The position numbers and the translations under genes were made by a program. Source: Nitrososphaerales archaeon TH526 (GTDB lineage: Archaea; Thermoproteota; Nitrososphaeria; Nitrososphaerales; Nitrososphaeraceae). From it: a DNA stretch of 14,439 bases. Where the stretch lies: the NCBI GenBank assembly GCA_014523665.1, contig JAATVR010000199.1:1-14439 (forward strand). Direction: 5' to 3'. The notes under the pieces are model-generated. The model was not told where the DNA came from. It did no database searches and was given only the letters and a program-made list of their open reading frames with translations. This document shows positions 4,037 through 5,598 of the stretch, one piece after another (within the stretch, counting starts at the first letter, position 1; every line of letters begins with the position of its first letter).

Positions 4037-4224
4037 TCTGCGACCCAAAAAAAAGTTTTATATGGTATTGAATCAGTAACAAAAAAGTTAGGGTTTCTAA
4101 TGCTGTGTTTCGGTAATAAATATTTACAAACTGTCTCTTCGGTCTGAAATCAACATATTTTCGGTGATCCCTTTTCCGCAATGTTGGTAGTTAAATGAGA
4201 TATTAAACATATTACTTTAGATAC

Positions 4225-4250
4225 CTAAGATAAATATATAGCTATCTTAG
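4225..4250. repeat. 8-bp inverted repeat
   Basis: CTAAGATA (4225-4232) and TATCTTAG (4243-4250) are perfect reverse complements around a 10-nt AT-rich spacer. It could be a hairpin or an operator. It overlaps the 5' arm of the larger pairing at 4248-4328, so the two folds would compete. Confidence 0.45.
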
Positions 4251-4328
4251 TTAACATTCGTATGGTGGAGTCTTTTACCTAATTGGTAGGTAGAGACGCT
4301 TAGCGCAAAACTAGGTCTTAACTAACCA
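4248..4328 (+). other. Possible structured RNA, tRNA-like in size
   Basis: The ends TTAGTTAA (4248-4255) and TTAACTAA (4318-4325) are reverse complements, and the second is followed by CCA. Inside lies a hairpin made of GTCT/AGAC outside and TACCT/AGGTA around AATTGGT, which resembles a tRNA D arm. The total span of about 81 nt is tRNA-like. However, I find no T-arm TTCRA motif and no convincing anticodon stem, so this is not called as a tRNA. A degenerate tRNA, another small RNA or chance are all possible. Confidence 0.2.
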
Positions 4329-4562
4329 TTTTGAAAAAGTACGTGCATTTATGGACACCTAAGTCGCTTTCATGTCGATCAAATAGTTTTTAGGATCATG
4401 AAGTAAAATACGGGTAACATTGCATTGTAAGAACCCACGTCATAATGTCCCAACCAACAGATACACCTCATTCACGTTTAGACAGCAAGTTTCGAATTAG
4501 TATTGAAATTTAGATAATCCTTTCTAATGATTTCTTTGATATTGCGATATTCTTGGCAGGAT

Positions 4563-4805
4563 CTAATGTGCTTTAAGAGCTTTAGCTGAGTCCCTAGGTT
4601 GTACAGCTCGATTCGCAGGCAAAACGCGATTCTTCTCCTCTCTATTTACCACATTAATAAAGTCATCCAGAGCTTCATCAAGATCTGCAGATTCTTTAAT
4701 ATTGTCAACAAGTGTCTTTAATGCGTCATCTACACTTTGTTGAATTAATTGAGATATTGTCCTATGAGAGAAATCGAACCTATCTTCCGATGCATTTCGA
4801 TAATT
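4563..4805 (-). pseudogene. Coding-like fragment without a start codon
   Basis: An open frame of 80 codons runs from the TAA at 4806-4808 to the TAG at 4563-4565, with no ATG, GTG or TTG until its last third. The predicted peptide looks like real protein: an amphipathic helical stretch (LIQQSVDDALKTLVDNIKE, then DLDEALDDFINVVNREEKN) and a basic tail (RVLPANRAVQPRDSAKALKAH). I do not recognise the family. The most likely reading is the C-terminal remnant of a gene whose 5' part was lost or frameshifted; a non-canonical start is the alternative. The intact upstream part was not found in the other minus-strand frames just beyond. It lies 80 bp from the TGTCA repeat array, and one extra repeat pair falls inside the fragment at 4702-4716. 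Confidence 0.45.
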
Positions 4806-4885
4806 TTATTATCCACCCTCGAATAAGGAGACTAATTGACATTACTTGATATTGAACATTTTACTTGTCTTGACTGACAATAAAG

Positions 4886-4970
4886 TGTCAAAATGATTTC
4901 CCTAGGGGGAATTGTCAACATATGTCAGGATTGTCAATGCAGCTGTCAGAATGATTGTCAACTAGTGTCA
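4886..4970 (+). repeat. Helically phased TGTCA direct-repeat array
   Basis: Seven exact TGTCA copies on the plus strand start at 4886, 4913, 4923, 4932, 4944, 4956 and 4966. The last six are 9-12 bp apart, averaging 10.6 bp, so they face the same side of the helix. They alternate between TTGTCAA (4912, 4931, 4955) and NTGTCAR (4922, 4943, 4965), giving three dimeric units of about 21 bp. Inverted copies (TGACA) occur at 4837 and 4875, and a near-identical dimer, 14 of 15 bases the same as 4955-4969, lies at 4702-4716. A CCCTAGGG palindrome (4900-4907) sits between the first and second copies. This looks like a cooperative binding site for a DNA-binding protein; which protein, and for what purpose, is unknown. 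Confidence 0.8.
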
Positions 4971-5385
4971 ATATAGCATCTCTGTGTTCGTCATCCATAG
5001 GTAAGTGCCATAATGGGCTATATCGTTCATACTTGCTATCGTCTGACACTCCGTTCCACTTGGTAAAATATCTGCTTCAGGCATATTTTCCATGCCTTAA
5101 CCTGACAGATCATTATAGAACGTTTTTGATCGTTCAACGTTTTTTTCTCCAAATGTACTATCACTAACATCTTCATTCGCCAGCTATTGTCATGAAAGTA
5201 GAAAGCGCCAGGCAGTGAGTTCATCCTAGCCAACACGATGATGTCAGAACATGGGTTAAGGCAGTCCACCTACTCGTTGTAGAATTGTCTCATAGTTTCA
5301 TTATTTCTAAAGCTTGTTCTAACTTCCTCAAAGCGTTTGTGATCCGGAGGAAATTAATAACACTTATTGTATCAGACGTTCTTGG
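4971..5385. other. Intergenic region
   Basis: Between the repeat array and the small exported-protein gene. A 77-codon minus-strand frame (5036-5269) and a 70-codon plus-strand frame (4955-5167) overlap each other, are Cys- or Met-rich without recognisable motifs, and are not called as genes. A short direct repeat ACGTTTTT occurs twice near 5119-5145. The promoter at 5348-5360 closes the region. Confidence 0.5.
5348..5360 (+). promoter_or_regulatory. BRE/TATA promoter of the small exported protein
   Basis: GGAGGAAATTAATAA contains a purine-rich BRE-like part followed by the TATA-like AAATTAATAA centred near 5356, 30 nt before the ATG at 5386. This spacing suggests a nearly leaderless transcript. 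Confidence 0.5.
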
Positions 5386-5598
5386 ATGACATTGATAAAG
5401 ATAATTCTCGCGTTAGTTATACTAACTGTCGTCATTAGTTACTTAAGTTCGAATGTGGTTCTCGCAAGCACTATCCGAGTTACACAACAGCAAGCGGAAT
5501 TGATAGAATGGTGCACTAAGGAGATGGTGAGAGTAACTGATGCTAGTATGGTTCAAGCTCTGAACGTTTGTGCAGAGTATTATTTGAAGGTAGAATAA
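5386..5598 (+). CDS. Small exported protein with two cysteines
   Basis: This predicted 70-residue protein is not one I recognise. Residues 5-20 are a clear hydrophobic segment after an N-terminal Lys, and VVLA at 24-27 is a plausible signal peptidase site; it may instead remain as a membrane anchor. The mature part would be only about 43 residues, mildly acidic and probably helical, with Cys43 and Cys62 that could form a disulphide or bind a metal or haem outside the cytoplasm. No CxxCH motif is present. The start is supported by a BRE/TATA element 30 nt upstream. It stands alone: the TGTCA array lies about 415 bp upstream, and the next confident gene, the broken CBS gene downstream, is on the other strand. 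Coding status rests on the signal peptide and the promoter. Confidence 0.6.
   Translation: MTLIKIILALVILTVVISYLSSNVVLASTIRVTQQQAELIEWCTKEMVRVTDASMVQALNVCAEYYLKVE

Follow-up and report, generated by a model that had tools for sequence, protein, structure and literature searches.

The met boxes of MetJ are tandem operator boxes in which adjacent short boxes located upstream of genes are bound cooperatively. Short direct words with near-constant spacing are found likewise in the iterons of mobile replicons. To our knowledge few multi-site phased DNA platforms are known in archaea, and none from ammonia-oxidising archaea was found described among the best-ranked matches in the full-text literature. 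In the ParR-parC system and the omega-parS system of pSM19035, short words in direct and inverted orientation are the substrate for cooperative assembly of ribbon-helix-helix proteins; the ParR repeats are of ~10 bp and pSM19035 has several array loci overlapping promoters, according to the sections of the source that treat these systems (PMC5016525). Prokaryotic MITEs are small, multicopy, non-coding and dispersed, as outlined in the relevant part of PMC10969869. The archaeal DNA element described here resembles the ParR and omega centromeres in its one-turn direct repeats (9-13 bp spacing in its TGTCA arrays) and differs from them by a constant GATTTnCCTAGnnGG centre, by the existence of two swapped words and by its dispersed chromosomal copies. 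From the met boxes it differs in box length, one-turn spacing, constant centre and swapped words. No published element of the same form was found among the best-ranked matches in the full text of open-access journal papers.

The array was found in the window, the 14,439-nucleotide stretch of DNA analysed here. TGTCA starts on the + strand at 4886, 4913, 4923, 4932, 4944, 4956 and 4966, that is seven times within 85 bp. Among 5000 first-order Markov sequences modelled on the interval 4049-5385 the largest 85-bp TGTCA cluster has four copies, reached in 4 cases. A ranking of the 1024 pentamers by their densest 85-bp cluster on the window's + strand puts TGTCA first (runner-up AAAAA, with 6). These numbers bear out the preliminary description, which had noted an abundance far above chance. 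The site positions confirm also its six TGTCA in identical orientation with gaps of 10, 9, 12, 12 and 10 bp (mean 10.6 bp). The proposed match to the helical repeat stands as a mean, but individual gaps vary from 9 to 12 bp and phase coherence is moderate, with a best-fitting period of ~10.9 and a vector strength of 0.54 for 37 sites in 17 copies of the element. Its three dimers of 21 bp are only approximate, the TTGTCAA boxes lying 19 and 24 bp from each other. Tandem Repeats Finder detects no tandem repeat at the array, which is thus an array of words rather than a simple tandem unit. The inverted word TGACA occurs 5' of the array at 4837 and 4875. The array as first described is real but makes up only one flank of a larger element. 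This element is organised around a constant centre, and its octamer TTCCCTAG (4898-4905) and its end at 4976 had been overlooked.

A dispersed non-coding DNA element, present at scattered sites in one genus of soil archaea, has the TGTCA cluster as its tail. When the intergenic region was compared with 41 genomes by BLAST, its array stretch had repeated matches in the genome of the window (G000) and in other genomes of the genus; the best match of any intergenic part outside the genus had an E-value of 0.0019. A 220-base query gave 22 matches distributed over the five genus genomes (G000 to G004); four of these matches (L023, L035, L036 and L037) cover only a neighbouring repeat of the type found at 4802-4845 in the window. 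The sequence-only profile built from 18 aligned copies of the element has 27 matches in the genus at E<=0.1 (7 in G000, 2 in G001, 4 in G002, 1 in G003 and 13 in G004), 23 of them below 1e-7, the 18 training copies matching by construction. The weakest, G004:C12 (E 0.076), looks like a chance match. Beyond the genus, the 70 genomes of the family yielded only weak matches, in 13 genomes (E 0.0014-0.1), which were not accepted as copies (the surroundings of four were inspected). A strict core pattern is found 12 times in three of the 70 family genomes, all belonging to the genus, and its reversed control not once. In GTDB contigs the same pattern matched five stretches, which belong to Nitrososphaerales archaeon TH5896 and to MAG plot3_rep3_bin15; TH5896 serves as a Nitrososphaeraceae genus name in the part of PMC12625717 that mentions it, and the window presumably comes from this genus. 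The recurrence of the array geometry in related genomes is borne out, since similar arrays are present at further loci and in several species.

The element is ~125 bp long, reaches up to ~250 bp with a left module, and has no coding capacity. Its layout consists of a TGACA-TGTCA pair, then the centre GATTTCCCTAGnnGG, then up to six direct TGTCA that are mostly 9-13 bp apart. With TTCCCTAG as the reference point, the 24 copies include 20 that have TGACA between -21 and -26 and 13 that have TGTCA at -11/-12. The direct TGTCA usually occupy positions +13 to +15, +23 to +25, +32 to +37, +44 to +49 and +55 to +58, the number of exact words 3' of the centre ranging from 0 to 6 per copy (24 copies). 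Neighbour gaps of at most 30 bp (n=52) measure 9-13 bp in 38 cases and 5-8 or 14-18 bp in none, with a two-peaked distribution (9-10 bp, n=17; 11 bp, n=3; 12-13 bp, n=18). The gaps do not count as independent events, since the copies share ancestry, and the common spacing reflects partly descent rather than selection. Mean column identity over 18 copies decreases from 0.97 in TTCCCTAG to 0.78 in the pentamers and 0.65 in the spacers outside the centre. When six 5-mers were placed at random 5000 times, 128 placements equalled the difference between pentamers and spacers, so that conservation support for the pentamers is moderate: the repeats are better conserved than the spacers, but the contrast is modest. 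The left module, which contains GTTAAC words and reaches ~-185, is present in several copies. The left module of G004:C249, used as a query, gave nine matches, all of them at known copies including the query's own place.

It is extremely improbable that the cluster is a product of chance, a coding repeat or an RNA structure. Other TGTCA arrays in the family do include simple or coding-like repeats, but simulated clusters had at most four copies and homologous copies of the element exist in five species. The 10- and 12-bp gaps fall out of one common reading frame. A protein-coding repeat was rejected: four of the six direct sites share one frame, but the minus-strand frames around the array have stops. 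At the RNA level, the RNAalifold consensus amounts to -0.98 kcal/mol with 8 pairs, one of them changed on both sides, showing no conserved fold; there was no Rfam match and no tRNA. These results support an action of the array at the DNA level, putatively as a protein-binding site. A family-wide role of TGTCA was also rejected: three-site arrays are found in 36 of 70 genomes and many look simple or coding (18 chosen loci were fetched).

Two elements keep the centre and the inverted-left, direct-right layout of the TGTCA type but are built with the word GTTCA (n=2). In G003, upstream of an ABM-monooxygenase gene (PF03992) without a profile match, a TGAAC/GTTCA pair precedes GTTCAGAAAGATTTGCCTAGGCGG and eight GTTCA spaced by 11 bp, the last of which is followed by ATATAG as in the window. 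The second, G000:C228, belongs to the window's own genome and has 19 GTTCA whose positions fit a slope of 10.61 bp with a largest residual of 0.82 bp. Its gaps are a mixture of 10 and 11 bp, and 2925 of 20000 shuffles are as even; the order of 10s and 11s being no evener than shuffled, the evidence is the mean period and not the order. The TGTCA profile, trained without GTTCA elements, gives a weak match to the G000:C228 centre (E 0.0015 in 43 kb) and none at E<=1 to the G003 element. The centre pattern GNTTTNCCTAGNNGG has 22 matches in the five genomes (reversed control 9), which correspond to 11 TGTCA-type copies, the two GTTCA elements, five copies of one conserved and apparently coding site, and four others. 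A longer centre pattern gave 15 matches in six of 300 genomes of the order (reversed control 3): 13 of them fall in four genomes of the genus, and the remaining 2 in two genomes from a different genus, the match in G011 lying within an ORF. The 19-site array is situated between glyoxalase-like and PNPOx-like genes (L239, 2917-3414 and 4514-5032), while the G003 array has the ABM gene on one side and, on the other, small ORFs with signal-peptide-like starts (L240, 4482-4757 and 4922-5185). Small ORFs of a similar kind are found near some TGTCA copies too.

The copy in the window (4851-4976, + strand; profile match 4851-4964, E 7.4e-25, a training copy) corresponds to the right half of the longer unit known from other loci. 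From left to right on the + strand it features TGAAC, which is the sister-type word GTTCA inverted (4853-4857), the inverted pair TGACA-N6-TGTCA that recurs among copies (4875-4890, with TGACA at 4875-4879 and TGTCA at 4886-4890), the constant centre GATTTCCCTAGGGGG (4895-4909), common to the two GTTCA elements, and the direct array of six TGTCA (4913-4970). It terminates in TGTCAATATAG; G002:C137 has this end too, and in the GTTCA element of G003 it reads GTTCAATATAG. The left module is missing and near 4845 the copy adjoins instead a second, different dispersed repeat, AATTTTATTATCCACCCTC...GGAGACTAATTGACATTA (4802-4845, + strand), which has 84-91% identity over 37-44 bases at L050, L051, L052 and L053. 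This repeat, also written AATTTTATTATCCACCCTC...GGAGACTAATTG, thus has four further loci in the genus. The stretch 4701-4716, ATTGTCAACAAGTGTC, is 88-94% like two array stretches and is perhaps a second array-end fragment 210 bp upstream. A truncated and decayed fragment of a glyoxalase-like gene starts at the element's right end (4976-5161, - strand). It has 71% and 69% DNA identity to intact relatives in L044 and L045, respectively, which match PF00903; the window frame is interrupted by stops. A small ORF of 70 aa follows downstream (5386-5598, + strand) and has orthologs in relatives without an element upstream.

The gene order of this region is kept in G002, with a glucose/sorbosone-dehydrogenase-like gene, an Lrp-like gene and a stretch with homology to window 5181-5391, but 150 bp are found there versus 1093 bp in the window (4088-5180, comprising the repeat, the element and the glyoxalase fragment). 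In the available DNA there is no profile match (E<=1) around the G002 locus or around the orthologs of the 5386 gene in G001, G003 and G004. The element is therefore not a conserved part of the window locus, and conservation of the repeats at the same place in close relatives, a prediction of the preliminary description, was not borne out. An operator of the 5386 gene or of the Lrp-like gene was rejected on the same grounds. The window copy is a solo copy beside a broken gene; its local function is doubtful, and it probably lacks a gene of its own to control. It may be a relic left over from rearrangement of a family that is perhaps functional elsewhere, a reading that is quite possible, if less likely than not: the absence of the left module, the truncated gene at the right edge and the orthologous locus without the element speak for it. 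Against it, the window copy has six exact direct TGTCA after its centre, the highest number among the 24 copies, and this centre is intact, which is unusual for decay. Such an origin is compatible with the explanation of the array as a protein-binding platform.

The copies are dispersed in both orientations and varied intergenic contexts, as expected for a non-autonomous, MITE-like mobile element or a solo transposon end whose pentamers would be subterminal transposase-binding sites and whose dispersal would result from transposition. The ~1.1 kb missing from G002, where the window copy adjoins another dispersed repeat and a truncated gene, the perfect inverted repeat TGACTGACA...TGTCAGTCA around the centre of several copies, and the ATATAG end common to three elements (ends compared by eye) also favour this reading. 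It is nonetheless rather unlikely. Unlike in MITEs, no constant terminal inverted repeat was seen in the same comparison by eye, and no target duplication was found, the only filled/empty pair being that with G002, at one locus and too diverged to show one. The neighbour set comprises 87 ORFs of at least 100 aa from the 2 kb on either side of 28 elements (the profile matches without G004:C12, n=26, and the two GTTCA elements); no transposase, integrase or replication initiator is present among the 25 of its 55 Pfam families that were listed, which include one Rad51-type recombinase. Similarity among the 18 copies is nearly equal within genomes (0.72, 40 pairs) and between genomes (0.69, 113 pairs), and genomes are interleaved in their tree, so that there is no sign of a recent burst. 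In some copies the shared sequence continues past the element into the flanks, on the right in G002:C137 and G004:C185 and on the left in G000:C365 and G004:C268b, pointing to duplication together with their surroundings.

ABM is the commonest Pfam family in the neighbour ORFs (6 of 87). Seven elements, six of the TGTCA type and one of the GTTCA type, lie upstream of ABM genes. The distance from TTCCCTAG to the ABM start codon is 149-160 bp in the six TGTCA-type elements, and the G003 GTTCA element precedes its ABM gene (assigned by Pfam) by 187 bp. The ABM gene at G000:C365 is broken and at G004:C6 a C-terminal ABM remnant is found after the element. As the ABM-linked elements have their centre 149-187 bp ahead of the start codon and upstream of the basal promoter, transcriptional control is a likely role. 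This constant upstream position is seen for the seven ABM-linked elements but not for many others. Most of the other copies have no ABM gene; they are found in varied places and in either orientation to nearby ORFs, G002:C137 lying between convergent ORFs, an arrangement that a promoter-type operator does not explain. The many solo copies count against a purely promoter-bound role. Conversely, a profile scan of 30 ABM loci (of 48 ABM matches altogether) found the TGTCA type at 6 and no such match at 24, one of which has the GTTCA type, and a promoter common to all ABM genes was thus rejected. The ABM family appears strongly expanded in the genus, with its 48 matches in the five genomes G000-G004, many of them partial or with stops. 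A GAAATAT-like word ~30 bp before the start codon recurs at many ABM loci, as judged by eye.

The combination of one-turn direct repeats with an inverted set is reminiscent of plasmid centromeres bound by ribbon-helix-helix proteins, as presented in the corresponding sections of PMC5016525, and the element might derive from a partition or replication site of a plasmid or integrated element. Three copies are near ribbon-helix-helix-like ORFs with a long C-terminal part (L241 509-1129, L242 7193-7861 and L111 843-1388), whose Pfam matches, NikA-like, CopG and HicB, are all below cut-off; the encoded proteins are candidate binders. Three loci in other genomes of the family carry 9-bp-period TGTCA arrays (TGTCAGGG, TGTCATAG and similar) 98-160 bp 3' of P4-type primase genes (L162, L171 and L174). 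These primase genes carry D5_N/DUF5906 domains and belong to two other genera. Arrays with the 9-bp period are found also within an MCM-like ORF (G002:C258) and within large ORFs (L161, L163, L165, L168 and L169), in reading frames that differ in L163, L165, L168 and L169. They look like iterons of integrated replicons, with conservation of the DNA word and not of the protein sequence. In a survey of integrated elements (PMC6563490) the word iteron appears a single time, among the references.

A centromere- or iteron-like nature of the dispersed element is, however, quite improbable. The element is multicopy, with up to 13 profile matches per genome, and its CCTAG centre was not seen in the 9-bp arrays inspected. 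Neither a replication gene nor a partition operon with its motor and binding protein was recognised beside the copies (ORFs by eye; 25 of 55 Pfam families listed), and the element differs from iterons also in its constant centre and in having no recognised initiator gene within 2 kb among those families. An origin in a virus or plasmid was rejected, window 4796-4980 being unmatched in phage and plasmid records and the two core patterns in viral contigs. Nothing found here supports a replication origin, a function of the kind that had been suggested for the array.

The reading preferred here, to which a probability of about 0.5 is assigned, takes the array as the distal portion of a dispersed element that is specific to the genus and acts as a cooperative protein-binding platform, with a likely role in transcriptional control. 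A putative oligomeric DNA-binding protein would seat on the TGACA-TGTCA pair beside the constant centre GATTTnCCTAGnnGG and then spread one way along the TGTCA sites, roughly one helical turn apart. By analogy, seating at the centre and one-way spreading would resemble the assembly of ParR and omega on direct and inverted repeats. The GTTCA elements may be read by a paralogous protein with shifted specificity. At the ABM-linked copies, protein bound at the element, above the basal promoter, would control transcription. A cooperative platform on one face of the DNA, as proposed in the preliminary description, agrees with the recurrent geometry, the lack of an RNA fold and the 10.61-bp period of the sister array, but not with the lack of conservation at the window locus. 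A broader scenario is more speculative and unlikely: paralogous host-encoded proteins, each with its own pentamer (TGTCA, GTTCA and perhaps more), would form one-sided filaments from the common centre GATTTnCCTAGnnGG and serve chromosome-wide regulation and organisation.

The two types of element, in which the centre is kept and the word swapped, form a natural experiment on how a DNA-binding protein and its sites evolve together. TGTCA-type, GTTCA-type and scrambled DNA are exact baits for finding the putative binder. If this protein controls ABM genes, it would open the way to understanding how transcription is controlled in a major group of soil nitrifiers that is mostly uncultured.
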